NCBI GenBank assembly: GCA_001885315.1
Contig: MLPZ01000015.1
Span: 62,001-126,000 of the forward strand
Reading direction: 5' to 3'
Length of the DNA: 64,000 nucleotides
From: Treponema sp. CETP13
Lineage (GTDB): Bacteria; Spirochaetota; Spirochaetia; Treponematales; Treponemataceae
Made by a program: the position numbers and the translations under genes. A model generated the notes under the pieces. It saw only the letters and a program-made list of their open reading frames with translations, ran no database searches and had not been told where the DNA came from. Numbering within the stretch: the first letter of the stretch is position 1; every line of letters starts with the position of its first letter. This document shows, piece by piece, positions 33,402 through 38,148 of this stretch.

Positions 33402-34346
33402 ATGACAATAGTAAAACACGTTAACGAATTAATCGGGAACACCCCGTTGCTGGAACTTTCTAACTTTGAAGAAAGTCATAAATTACCAGTTCGACTGTGT
33501 GCAAAACTTGAAAAAATGAACCCAAGCGGAAGTGTAAAAGATAGAGCCGCATTATTTATTATAGAAAAAGCATTAAAAGAAGGTAAGCTTGTTGCAGGAA
33601 CCCAAAAAAATCCATCAAAATCTGTATTAATAGAAGAAACCAGTGGTAACACAGGAATTGGATTGGCCTCTATTGCAGCAAGTTTAAATATTCGTTGTAT
33701 TTGCGTTATGCCGGAAAACATGAGCGAAGAACGGAAACAAATTCTTAAAGCCTATGGAGCTGAAGTTGTTTTAACCCCAGCACAAAATGGGATGCAAGGA
33801 GCCGTCGACAAAGTCAATGAACTTGTAACTCAAATACCCGGAAGCTTCGTTGCTTCTCAATTTGATAATCCAGCAAACCCAGAAGCTCATTATAAAACGA
33901 CAGGGCCAGAAATTTGGGAACAAAGTGAAGGAAAAATCGACATCTTTATTTCCGGTATTGGAACAGGGGGAACCCTTTCTGGGACAGGAAAATATCTAAA
34001 AGAACAAAATCCAAAAATCCAAATTATTGGGGTCGAACCAGCTGAATCACCAATTATAACTAAAGGAACAACAGGTCCACACAAAATTCAAGGAATAGGA
34101 GCAAATTTTATCCCAGACAATTATATTGCTAAATATGTGGATGAGATTTTACGGTGTCCTTCAGAAAAAGCTTTTGAATATGGAAAAGAAATTCCTAAAG
34201 AAGGAATTCTTTGTGGAATATCTAGTGGGGCAGCACTTTGGGCAGCAGAGCAAGTAGCATTTCGTCCTGAAAATGCAGGAAAATTAATTGTATGCGTCTT
34301 TCCTGACGACGGAGCCCGTTATTTATCCACAAATTTATTTACATAA
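33402..34346 (+). CDS. cysK: Cysteine synthase (O-acetylserine sulfhydrylase)
   Basis: 314-residue PLP enzyme: O-acetylserine + sulfide to cysteine. The PLP Lys is K46 in NPSGSVKDRAA, the substrate loop is EETSGNTGIGLA, and the phosphate loop is GIGTGGTLSGTG. The C-terminal SSGAALWAA is standard. The ribosome site is AAAGGATG. Product cysteine feeds the IscS pathway in this window, and a half-conserved copy of the iscS operator lies upstream. A terminator follows 63 bases after the stop. Confidence 0.95.
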   Translation: MTIVKHVNELIGNTPLLELSNFEESHKLPVRLCAKLEKMNPSGSVKDRAALFIIEKALKEGKLVAGTQKNPSKSVLIEETSGNTGIGLASIAASLNIRCICVMPENMSEERKQILKAYGAEVVLTPAQNGMQGAVDKVNELVTQIPGSFVASQFDNPANPEAHYKTTGPEIWEQSEGKIDIFISGIGTGGTLSGTGKYLKEQNPKIQIIGVEPAESPIITKGTTGPHKIQGIGANFIPDNYIAKYVDEILRCPSEKAFEYGKEIPKEGILCGISSGAALWAAEQVAFRPENAGKLIVCVFPDDGARYLSTNLFT

Positions 34347-34362
34347 TCTTACTTAATCAATC

Positions 34363-34392
34363 TTGACATTTTCTTAATTTGTATGGCATTAT
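34363..34392 (+). promoter_or_regulatory. Candidate promoter before the cytidylate-kinase-like/ABC operon
   Basis: TTGACA (34363-34368), 18 bases, CATTAT (34387-34392), with an extended TG motif (TGGCATTAT). Transcription would start near 34399 and run at once into the hairpin at 34409. Confidence 0.5.
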
Positions 34393-34408
34393 TAACTTGT
34401 GCTTGAAG

Positions 34409-34460
34409 AAACGCGCAAGACCAATGGCGGTTTAACTATTGGTCTTGCGCGTTTTTTTTT
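34409..34460 (+). terminator. Very strong intrinsic terminator abutting the next ribosome site
   Basis: 17-bp perfect stem AAACGCGCAAGACCAAT, 12-base loop, and a T-run ending at 34460. The AGGAGG ribosome site starts at the next base and the ATG is at 34471, so no promoter fits between. A competing pairing exists: CTTGTGC (34396-34402) with GCGCAAG (34413-34419) of the left arm. Terminator for cysK, conditional attenuator for the next operon, or both. Confidence 0.88.
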
Positions 34461-34470
34461 AGGAGGCTTC

Positions 34471-35073
34471 ATGAGTGATCATCTTATCATTACTATTGTA
34501 AGAGAATTTGGGGCAGAAGGACATGAAATTGGCATGTTGCTTGCCAAAAAGCTTGGTATAAAGCTATACGACAAAGACCTTGTGCAAAAAGCTGCAGAAA
34601 AAAGAGGTATTTCTCAGGGGCGTATAACAGATATAGACGAAACAGCTACAAATAAGTTTTTAAGCCCCTATTCAAAGTTTGGATTATCAATGAATACGCT
34701 TAGCGATGATTTATTTAGAGCAGAACAACAGATTATTCATGAACTAGCAGAAAAAGAAACATGTATAATTGTCGGCCGTTTATCTGACTACATTTTGAGA
34801 GAAGAAAAAAACTGTATGAAGGTTTTTATTTATGCTCCTGTAGAATTTAGAGTTAATAGAATGATAGAAAAATATTCTATTTCAGAACAAGCGGCAAAAA
34901 AACTTGTAAAAAAAATGGATATTGCTCGAAATTATTTCTGTTCTTATTATTCAAATAACAAATGGAAGCCTTTTTTAGAAAAAGATATCATAATTAATCG
35001 AGAATTTTTTAGTGTAGAAGATAGTGTTAAAATTCTTGAAACAGCAGCTAGAACAAGAATGGGGGCTAAATAA
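34471..35073 (+). CDS. Cytidylate kinase-like family protein
   Basis: 200-residue P-loop kinase-like protein of the AAA/cytidylate-kinase-like type found in many anaerobes. It begins IITIVREFGAEGHEIGMLLA, the family's variant P-loop, followed by YDKDLV, and has CIIVGRLSDYIL and a LID-like Arg-rich stretch. The start at 34471 is chosen for AGGAGG just upstream; a longer reading from 34399 would translate the terminator hairpin. Function is unclear: nucleotide or other small-substrate kinase. It is followed directly by the ABC ATPase (stop TAA then ATG), so it is the first gene of the transporter operon. Confidence 0.8.
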   Translation: MSDHLIITIVREFGAEGHEIGMLLAKKLGIKLYDKDLVQKAAEKRGISQGRITDIDETATNKFLSPYSKFGLSMNTLSDDLFRAEQQIIHELAEKETCIIVGRLSDYILREEKNCMKVFIYAPVEFRVNRMIEKYSISEQAAKKLVKKMDIARNYFCSYYSNNKWKPFLEKDIIINREFFSVEDSVKILETAARTRMGAK

Positions 35074-35802
35074 ATGGCAATGATCAAAGTAGAACATTTA
35101 AATAAATTTTTTGGGGATCTTCATGTACTTAAAGATATCAACCTAGAAGTTGCAGAAGGAGAAAAACTTGTTGTTATAGGACCTTCTGGAAGTGGGAAAA
35201 GTACACTAATAAGATGTATAAATTATTTAGAAGAACCTACAAGTGGCGAAATTTTTATTAACAACATAAAGATGACCAAACGTAATAAAACAGAAATGGC
35301 TAGAAAATATTCTTCTATGGTGTTTCAACAGTTTAATTTATATCCACATAAAACAGTTCTTGAAAATTTAACTTTTGCACCTATAAAACTACAAAAAATT
35401 CCAAAGGCACAAGCAATAGAAAATGCGAAAGCTCACTTAGAAAGGGTTGGACTTGGAGCAAAAGCAGATGTTTATCCTCAAAATCTTTCTGGAGGACAAC
35501 AACAACGCGTCGCAATTGCTCGTTCTATGTGCACAAAACAACCAATCATTCTTTTTGATGAACCAACAAGTGCTTTAGACCCAGAAATGGTACAAGAAGT
35601 ACTCGATGTTATGGTTGAGTTAGCAAAAGAAAACATAACAATGATTTGTGTAACACATGAAATGGGATTTGCTAAACAAGTTGCGGACAGAGTTGTTTTT
35701 ATGGATGATGGCCAAATATTAGAACAAGGAACTCCAAAACATTTTTTTGAAAATCCAGAAAATGAAAGGACAAAAAGTTTTTTAAGTAAAATACTTAGAT
35801 AA
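35074..35802 (+). CDS. Polar amino-acid ABC transporter ATPase (GlnQ type)
   Basis: 242 residues with Walker [10 protein letters not shown], signature [14 protein letters not shown], Walker [15 protein letters not shown] and the H-loop VTHEMGFA, characteristic of the polar amino-acid uptake group. It powers the importer formed with the binding protein and two permeases that follow. The ATG directly follows the stop of the kinase-like gene; a second ATG two codons later is possible. Confidence 0.94.
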
Positions 35803-35840
35803 CATCGCAAGATGAAAGTTAAAATAAAGGGAGTATGATT

Positions 35841-36737
35841 ATGTCTAGAACAACAAAAATGAACAGACTGACTATGGTACTAGTTGCAAGTATATTTGCA
35901 ACAATGTTATTTACAGCATGTAATGATGAAAAAAAATCAGAGACGGCTGCCACTACAACAGTAGAACGAACAACAACAACAAGTACCGAATACAATATGG
36001 ATGCTAGTGATATTCAAAAAATTGTAAATGCTGGTGTTTTAAATGTCGGATGTAAAGCTGATGTTCCAAAATTTGGTAGCCAAAACACAGCTACGGGCGA
36101 ATTTGAAGGCATGGAAATTGATATTGCTTACAATGTAGCTGCAAAACTTTTTGGTGTTTCTCCTGAAGAAGCTAAAGAGAAGGGACTGGTAAATTTTACA
36201 GCCGTTACTGCAGCAACTCGTGGTGAACTTTTAAATAACGGTTCTATCGATATGGTAGCTGCTACTTTTACAATAAAACCGGCTCGTCTTGAAAACTGGA
36301 ACTTTTCTACTCCTTATTTTACAGACCATGTTGGTTTAATGGTTAAAACATCTGAAGGTTTTAAATCTGCTGCAGATTTAGACGGAGCTATCATTGGTAT
36401 TGCAGATGGAGCAACAACAGGTGATGCAATTGCAGATTATCTAAAAGAAAATAATATCGATGCAAAGGTAACATTCCATTCATTTGCTACATACCCTGAT
36501 ATTTCAGCTGCTTTGTCATCCGGTAATGTTGATGTTTTTTCAGTTGACCGTTCTATTCTTGCAGGATACAACGATGACACAACAGAGATTCTTCCAGATT
36601 CTTTTGGACCACAAGATTACGGTATTGCAACACGTTTAACTGATACAGACTTTACAAATCTTGTTAATGCAACCGTTGTTGAAATGCTTGATAATGGTTC
36701 AATTGATAAATTATTAACTCAATATGGGATTGAATAA
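35841..36737 (+). CDS. Amino-acid ABC transporter substrate-binding lipoprotein
   Basis: About 298 residues. Signal peptide and lipobox LFTAC, then a Thr/Ser-rich linker and a type II periplasmic-binding domain of the Glu/Gln/Asp class: GVLNVGCKADVPKFG, FEGMEIDIAYNVAAKLFG, FTIKPARLENWNFSTPYF, DGAIIGIADGATTGDAI. The start is set at 35841, eight bases after GGGAG; the ATG six bases earlier is too close. The ligand is probably an acidic or polar amino acid. Confidence 0.9.
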   Translation: MSRTTKMNRLTMVLVASIFATMLFTACNDEKKSETAATTTVERTTTTSTEYNMDASDIQKIVNAGVLNVGCKADVPKFGSQNTATGEFEGMEIDIAYNVAAKLFGVSPEEAKEKGLVNFTAVTAATRGELLNNGSIDMVAATFTIKPARLENWNFSTPYFTDHVGLMVKTSEGFKSAADLDGAIIGIADGATTGDAIADYLKENNIDAKVTFHSFATYPDISAALSSGNVDVFSVDRSILAGYNDDTTEILPDSFGPQDYGIATRLTDTDFTNLVNATVVEMLDNGSIDKLLTQYGIE

Positions 36738-36742
36738 AATTT

Positions 36743-37486
36743 ATGACCAGTTTATTTGATTGGTCAAAATGGTTAAGACTCTTATCTGACGGGCCAACAC
36801 TGCTTACCTTTGCAGAAGGCTTAAAGATAACTATCCTAATAGCTATTGCAGGTTTATTACTTGCAATGGCACTTGGTATAGTATTTGGGTTTATGTCCGT
36901 TGCCAAAAATAAAATACTTAGAGTAATTTCTCGTATTTATGTAGAGCTATATCAGAATACACCATTGCTTTTACAGACTTTTTTTTACTACTATTCAATC
37001 CCAGCATTTCGTCGAAGTGTTCTAGGAATGAGTATACGAGAAGCTCGTCTATCGGGGTTTATTTACGGAATATTAGGAGTTGGACTTTATCATGGAGCCT
37101 ATATGGCTGAAGTAATACGAACAGGGATAGAAGCCATTCCAAAAGGACAAACAGAAGCGGCTCAATCACAAGGGTTTACCGTATTGCAAACAATGATACA
37201 TGTTATCCTGCCACAAACATTTAAGATGATAATGCCTCCAATGACAAATCAAGCTCTTAATCTTGTAAAAAACACATCTGTAGTTGCGCTTATTTCTGGG
37301 TTTGACTTAATGTATTATTCTAATGTATATGTAACCAAAGGGGGAAACCTTAATGGCTATGTACTTTGTGCAATAATGTACTTTATTATTTGTTTACCGT
37401 TAGCTCAGCTTTCTAAACATTTAGAACTTAAAGCAGCACAAGTACCAGAAGATAAAAAAACAGTTAATAAGGGTGAGGTAGCATAA
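36743..37486 (+). CDS. Amino-acid ABC transporter permease (HisM/GltJ type)
   Basis: 247 residues, five or six helices, with the family hallmark ELYQNTPLLLQTFFYYYSIP and the ATPase-coupling loop EAAQSQGFTVLQTMIHVILP. It pairs with the following permease to form the transmembrane channel. It begins five bases after the binding protein's stop and overlaps the next start by one base. Confidence 0.93.
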   Translation: MTSLFDWSKWLRLLSDGPTLLTFAEGLKITILIAIAGLLLAMALGIVFGFMSVAKNKILRVISRIYVELYQNTPLLLQTFFYYYSIPAFRRSVLGMSIREARLSGFIYGILGVGLYHGAYMAEVIRTGIEAIPKGQTEAAQSQGFTVLQTMIHVILPQTFKMIMPPMTNQALNLVKNTSVVALISGFDLMYYSNVYVTKGGNLNGYVLCAIMYFIICLPLAQLSKHLELKAAQVPEDKKTVNKGEVA

Positions 37487-38148
37487 TGAATCAACTTGCA
37501 AGTGTTTTTACAAAAAGTAATATGATTTACATGATGCAAGGACTTTTACTTACTGTAGAAATAGCTATAGCTACAATTATTTTAAGCCTAATTTTTGGAA
37601 CTATTTTAGCATTAATTAAAACATTTGCAAAAGGTAAATTAAAGTTTTTATCATATCTAGCTTCTGCCTATATAGAACTTTTTAGATGCACACCAAACCT
37701 TTTGTGGATATATTTTATTTACTTTGGATTAAAGGGCTCTCAATTTGTTATTGGAAGCTTAATATTTACTGTTTTTACCTCGGCGGTTGTAGCAGAAATA
37801 GTTCGTGGTGGCTTAAATGCTATCCCAAAAGGACAATTTGAAGGAGCTGCATCTCAAGGATTTAACTTCTTTCAAACTTTAGAATACATTGTTCTTCCAC
37901 AGACTTTTAAAAGTATTATTCCAGCTCTTTTATCACAGATGACAACAGTAATAAAAGACACTTGTTATCTTAGAGCTGTTGCTATTGCTGATTTTATGTG
38001 GCAAGGAATGGTAGTCATTGGGCAATATTCTAAATCTTTTATACAAATTATAGCAGTTTTTGCATTTATGGCTGCTGTCTATTTTATAATAAATTTTACA
38101 ATGTCAGTACTTATTCGTAAATATCAAAAACGAATAATGATTCAATAA
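37486..38148 (+). CDS. Amino-acid ABC transporter permease (HisQ/GltK type)
   Basis: 220 residues of the same permease family: ELFRCTPNLLWIYFIYFGL and the coupling loop EGAASQGFNFFQTLEYIVLP. Second half of a heterodimeric channel. The start overlaps the stop of the first permease (TAATG). It is the last gene of the operon and is followed by a bidirectional terminator. Confidence 0.93.
   Translation: MNQLASVFTKSNMIYMMQGLLLTVEIAIATIILSLIFGTILALIKTFAKGKLKFLSYLASAYIELFRCTPNLLWIYFIYFGLKGSQFVIGSLIFTVFTSAVVAEIVRGGLNAIPKGQFEGAASQGFNFFQTLEYIVLPQTFKSIIPALLSQMTTVIKDTCYLRAVAIADFMWQGMVVIGQYSKSFIQIIAVFAFMAAVYFIINFTMSVLIRKYQKRIMIQ

Follow-up and report, generated by a model that had tools for sequence, protein, structure and literature searches.

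An ANTAR-type hexaloop hairpin overlapping the leader terminator of an amino-acid ABC operon in Treponema sp. CETP13, a probable attenuator within a nitrogen-assimilation regulon of the Treponemataceae

An operon for amino-acid uptake in Treponema sp. CETP13 is preceded by an intrinsic terminator that abuts the Shine-Dalgarno sequence of the first gene and overlaps, in its 5′ arm, a hexaloop hairpin of the type recognized by ANTAR-domain proteins. Hexaloop-terminator units of this kind also stand before genes of nitrogen assimilation, both in the same genome and in relatives. The leader probably works as an attenuator controlled by ANTAR antitermination, as part of a nitrogen-assimilation regulon of the Treponemataceae. 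The window analyzed was a 64,000-nucleotide stretch of contig MLPZ01000015.1 (positions 62,001 to 126,000 of the forward strand); all positions given here count within it, and its features are collected in Table 1.

Table 1. Leader elements and genes of the amino-acid ABC operon region (positions within the window)
Feature	Position	Strand	Remarks
cysK	33402..34346	+	Gene upstream; attenuator doubles as its 3′ terminator
Putative sigma-70 promoter	34363..34392	+	TTGACA-18-CATTAT, TG before −10; 10/12 match
Possible degenerate first hairpin (P1-like)	34399..34416	+	GTGC...GCGC; minimum-energy fold of nascent RNA to 34437
Intrinsic terminator	34409..34460	+	17-bp stem 34409-34425/34438-34454; T9 34452-34460
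ANTAR-type hexaloop hairpin (P2, candidate antiterminator)	34418..34433	+	AGACC[AATGGC]GGTTT; closing C:G, A1, G4
Shine-Dalgarno sequence	34461..34466	+	AGGAGG, directly 3′ of T tract; ATG at 34471
First gene, cytidylate-kinase-like protein	34471..35073	+	PF13189; last in relatives' operon
Polar amino-acid ABC transporter ATPase	35074..35802	+	
Family-3 solute-binding lipoprotein	35835..36737	+	Most similar to aspartate/glutamate-binding PEB1 type, but scores under the family cut-off
ABC permease 1	36743..37486	+	
ABC permease 2	37486..38148	+	

The 5′ arm of the terminator, AAACGCGCAAGACCAAT, pairs perfectly with the 3′ arm, ATTGGTCTTGCGCGTTT, over all 17 bp. An earlier, sequence-only reading of this DNA had described the terminator, a T tract running to 34460 and AGGAGG beginning at 34461, and all of these were found exactly there. 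The leader (34397 to 34470) folded with −37.8 kcal/mol (z = −7.4), which none of 200 shuffled sequences matched. Base rates were taken from a 432-kb sample of the genome, drawn as stretches, in which 65 strong terminators were identified, 10 of which lay no more than 110 nt from a gene start. The window terminator was the nearest of these 10 to a start (19 nt; the next, 38 nt), and the placement of a terminator directly before a start is more than chance. No comparable hairpin was seen among the 13 other sites inspected at which T6 runs into GGAGG and ATG. The hairpin sequence occurs once in the genome, on which ground an uptake-sequence or repeat-type terminator was rejected.

The promoter proposed earlier at 34363 is present as a 10/12 match, from which transcription would be expected to start near 34399 to 34401. 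It is weak on its own, since the surrounding 3-kb region contained 12 promoter-like sites compared with 11.4 in shuffles, and it gains plausibility because most of the family leaders scanned carry such a site at a similar position. A scan of the plus strand from 34393 to 35795 identified no sigma-70-like site matching at least 9 of 12 positions, including inside the hairpin and after the T tract, and the operon is therefore probably reached only through the terminator. Together with the conservation of the device before orthologous operons, this bears out the proposal of an attenuator with obligatory read-through. An in-frame GTG at 34399, which runs through the terminator, had no visible ribosome site. 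Rfam covariance models gave no match above the gathering score for the window or nine related loci, in agreement with the earlier remark that no known riboswitch fold is visible.

ANTAR antiterminators are recognized through a hexaloop that has A at position 1 (A1) and G at position 4 (G4) and is closed by a C:G pair (PMC3369931; PMC7496416). Exactly one C-closed A1/G4 hexaloop hairpin was present in the window leader, at 34418 to 34433. The chance expectation at its stem length was 0.0015 per 45 nt, and such a hairpin appeared in 0.13% of dinucleotide-shuffled window leaders. Only two of the 65 terminators in the 432-kb sample, the window's among them, had a hexaloop overlapping the 5′ arm. 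In the window, the overlap involves the upper part of the arm and not its base. Because the hexaloop sits 9 nt into the arm, a 9-bp lower stem could still pair when the hexaloop alone is formed (−15.3 kcal/mol versus −26.5 kcal/mol for the full terminator), and blocking of this lower stem would require the P1-like hairpin. Folded from 34399 to 34437, the nascent RNA is most stable as two adjacent hairpins, 34399-34416 and 34418-34433, joined by a 1-nt linker. The inner part of the first can be read as a hexaloop, GAAGAA, with G at positions 1 and 4 and hence without the A1 of the ANTAR element. The two nascent hairpins appear to resemble the published P1-P2 pair, but for the G at position 1 of the first loop.

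Orthologous ABC operons in eight related genomes carried a terminator in the leader, mostly directly before the Shine-Dalgarno sequence, and, where the 5′ arm of the terminator begins, a hexaloop hairpin such as GAC[AAAGAG]GTC, CAGC[AAAGGA]GCTG, or TGGC[AAAGGG]GTCA. At one of these loci (L067), a second terminator lies between the first and the Shine-Dalgarno sequence. The gene order in the relatives is ATPase, binding protein, permease, permease, and kinase; the transcript thus opens with a different gene than in the window, but behind the same leader architecture. The device stands before the ATPase gene also in relatives that have no cysK upstream. Three loci of one genus (g3) had no such leader before the orthologous operon, though g3 relatives have ANTAR. 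The PF13189 cytidylate-kinase-like gene was seen to recur in the amino-acid ABC operon at L063 and L066, where it is last, whereas it is first in the window.

The 3′ strand of the hexaloop stem in these leaders is the beginning of the terminator 5′ arm, and because the 5′ strand lies outside the terminator, hexaloop complementarity is an independent constraint. Across 15 hairpins, the stem showed 15 double-change cells compared with 4.3 in shuffles, and a covariation score of 0.60 compared with at most 0.10 for slid versions. Positions C5, A6, A7, G9, and G12 (the closing C, A1, A2, G4, and the closing G) were invariant in the 15 hairpins, and beyond the window's own element 14 others shared these bases. 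Because the loop bases were fixed in the pattern search, which covered 195 genomes of the family, its matches give no independent measure of loop conservation. Independent evidence comes from the stem statistics, from the leaders of the orthologous operons, and from those of GSIII and asnB. A flanking hexaloop stem was found at 49 of the 63 pattern matches that have a terminator stem of 8 bp or more and at 1 of the 30 that have none. Matches L098 (the 3′ terminator of Lon) and L096 were discarded as ordinary or unrelated. The strict motif of the relatives, GACAAMGRGGTC, is absent from the window, and the strict motif ACAAMGRGG had no match in the window's genome. Taken alone, that absence would suggest excluding the genome from the family, but its own asnB, GSIII, and amtB leaders contain the form C[AANGGC]G.

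In the window's genome, hexaloop-terminator units precede GSIII (ACATC[AAAGGC]GATGT), asnB (GGAC[AAAGGC]GTCC), and AmtB-PII (CACGTC[AAAGGC]GACGTG). The unit was found in relatives before asnB, GSIII, GSI, gltB, gltD, amtB, dapF, and the gene of a TPP enzyme. A separate named collection of asnB leaders contained it at 15 of 22 spirochaete-type loci, including Treponema zioleckii, and at 0 of 58 other loci, mostly from Bacteroidota. Since genes for glutamine synthetase, asparagine synthase, AmtB, and glutamate synthase all lie behind this device, the input is more likely to be nitrogen status, conveyed through an ANTAR response regulator, and the amino-acid or cysteine input suggested earlier is not upheld. 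Glutamine and glutamate synthase leaders often contain tandem hexaloop-terminator units (L089, L129, L177, L186, and L170). An ammonium transporter-PII fusion (PF00909 plus PF00543) lies behind a unit at L167:4145-6034 (G000:C3) and at L171:2018-3745. Separately, the leaders L158 and L159 (G000:C14:184084 and G000:C17:136934) both contain AGTGTTRYGCAAYAC and, ahead of T8-GGAGG-ATG, a block resembling GTGYRTGCACT; the arrangement looks like an operator common to two exported proteins.

The window's genome gave one ANTAR match, a response regulator with a receiver and an ANTAR domain (PF03861; E value, 3e−16). Its gene lies directly after glutamine synthetase I, in a cluster also holding GSIII and AmtB-PII, and its relatives of known structure (PDB) include EutV, AmiR, and NasR. 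ANTAR was present in 35 of 36 genomes with the strict element and in 101 of 159 without it (P = 1.3e−5, a figure inflated by kinship). The exception, G169, carries the strict element and a partial ANTAR domain below the cut-off, while no strict element match was obtained in the 101 other ANTAR-bearing genomes. The co-occurrence is confounded by descent, because the genomes with orthologs come mostly from one genus.

Under the ANTAR antitermination model, RNA polymerase would start near 34399 or arrive from cysK, and by default the 17-bp hairpin would form and transcription would stop at 34452 to 34460. A shortage of nitrogen, the presumed signal, would activate the single ANTAR response regulator, which would then hold the hexaloop hairpin (34418 to 34433) in the nascent RNA. 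This hairpin would take AGACC and the loop bases AAT from the terminator 5′ arm, and the P1-like hairpin (34399 to 34416) would occupy the lower part of the arm. With both hairpins on the arm, the terminator would be blocked and the amino-acid uptake operon read, the predicted direction of the response.

Other explanations of the leader can be weighed against this model. An attenuator of the same regulon might be served by a non-ANTAR protein that recognizes the hexaloop hairpin or a purine-rich 5′ end of the transcript. This would suit the presence of one hexaloop in most leaders, as characterized ANTAR targets have two; however, the C:G closure, A1, and G4 all fit the published ANTAR element, the gene functions and the co-occurrence of ANTAR fit it as well, and EutV binds isolated single hexaloops (PMC8934654), making such a factor unlikely. 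We give slightly less credence to a constitutive 3′ terminator of cysK, the operon being transcribed without regulation through leaky termination or from an internal promoter that escaped notice. The hairpin has the place and orientation of a cysK terminator and the window hexaloop is off-register, but the device is kept before the ATPase gene in relatives that have no cysK upstream, a promoter-like site separates cysK from the hairpin, and the hexaloop has a chance expectation of about 0.0015.

The sequence-only reading had itself pointed to CTTGTGC/GCGCAAG (34396-34402 with 34413-34419) as the pairing that competes with the terminator. That pairing exists, and it would be complete in a transcript coming from cysK. 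With a start expected near 34399, however, only GTGC/GCGC (4 of 7 pairs) would fall within the RNA, and the pairing is not conserved in relatives, in which the hexaloop hairpin is the conserved part. Sensing of an amino acid is further opposed by the lack of a visible ribosome site for the possible leader peptide MALLTCA (34383 to 34406) and of an Rfam match, and an attenuator that senses an amino acid or cysteine through this antiterminator is very improbable.

Within the preferred ANTAR antitermination reading, the family leaders suggest a design of their own. A sigma-70-like match was identified in 29 of the 33 leaders scanned, the other 4 giving none, and in the matched leaders the median distance from the end of the −10 element to the hexaloop stem was 11 nt. 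Transcription is therefore expected to begin about 5 nt before the hexaloop, which in most leaders leaves no room for P1 and makes them look like natural units with a single hexaloop. The leader in the window is the exception, being longer (25 nt between these points) and having the possible degenerate P1. It is reasonable to suppose, with moderate confidence, that nitrogen assimilation in the Treponemataceae is controlled by promoter-proximal single-hexaloop ANTAR attenuators that lack a recruitment hairpin and occur alone or in tandem. The supposition covers leaders with a start about 5 nt before an A1/G4 hexaloop in the terminator base, ahead of glutamine and glutamate synthases, asnB, AmtB-PII, and amino-acid uptake genes. 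A 2022 paper on the structure of EutV argued that one hexaloop is the minimal ANTAR motif but that antitermination involves successive contact with both (PMC8934654). Leaders with one hexaloop and no space for a first make the need for two directly testable. What had been an attenuator of unknown input is now a specific, refutable prediction, and a candidate nitrogen-control circuit for Treponema emerges; none was found described in the papers searched, in the main texts of which no mention of Treponema or spirochaetes was found.

Among the closest known systems are the eut operons of Enterococcus faecalis (EutV/EutW), which likewise have an ANTAR-output response regulator and are off by default, and in which an A1/G4 hexaloop hairpin overlaps an intrinsic terminator in its 5′ arm. 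The eut leaders differ in having two hexaloops, P1 for recruitment and P2 as the antiterminator, with a constrained linker. In the Treponemataceae most leaders can accommodate only one, that of the window combines a canonical hexaloop with a possible degenerate one, and the target genes are those of nitrogen assimilation. The NasR-nasF leader of Klebsiella shares an ANTAR protein, a C:G-closed hexaloop, a leader terminator, and nitrogen genes; in that system, however, a NIT domain senses nitrate and two hairpins are used, a single hairpin being bound weakly by NasR (∼12 μM; PMC7496416), while a receiver-domain ANTAR protein is present here. Predicted ANTAR nitrogen regulons in Desulfotomaculum and Pelobacter also comprise glutamate and glutamine synthases and ammonium transporters but have a dual-hairpin motif (PMC3369931). 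By comparison with these systems, the Treponemataceae leaders may represent ANTAR antitermination that departs from the two-hairpin form.
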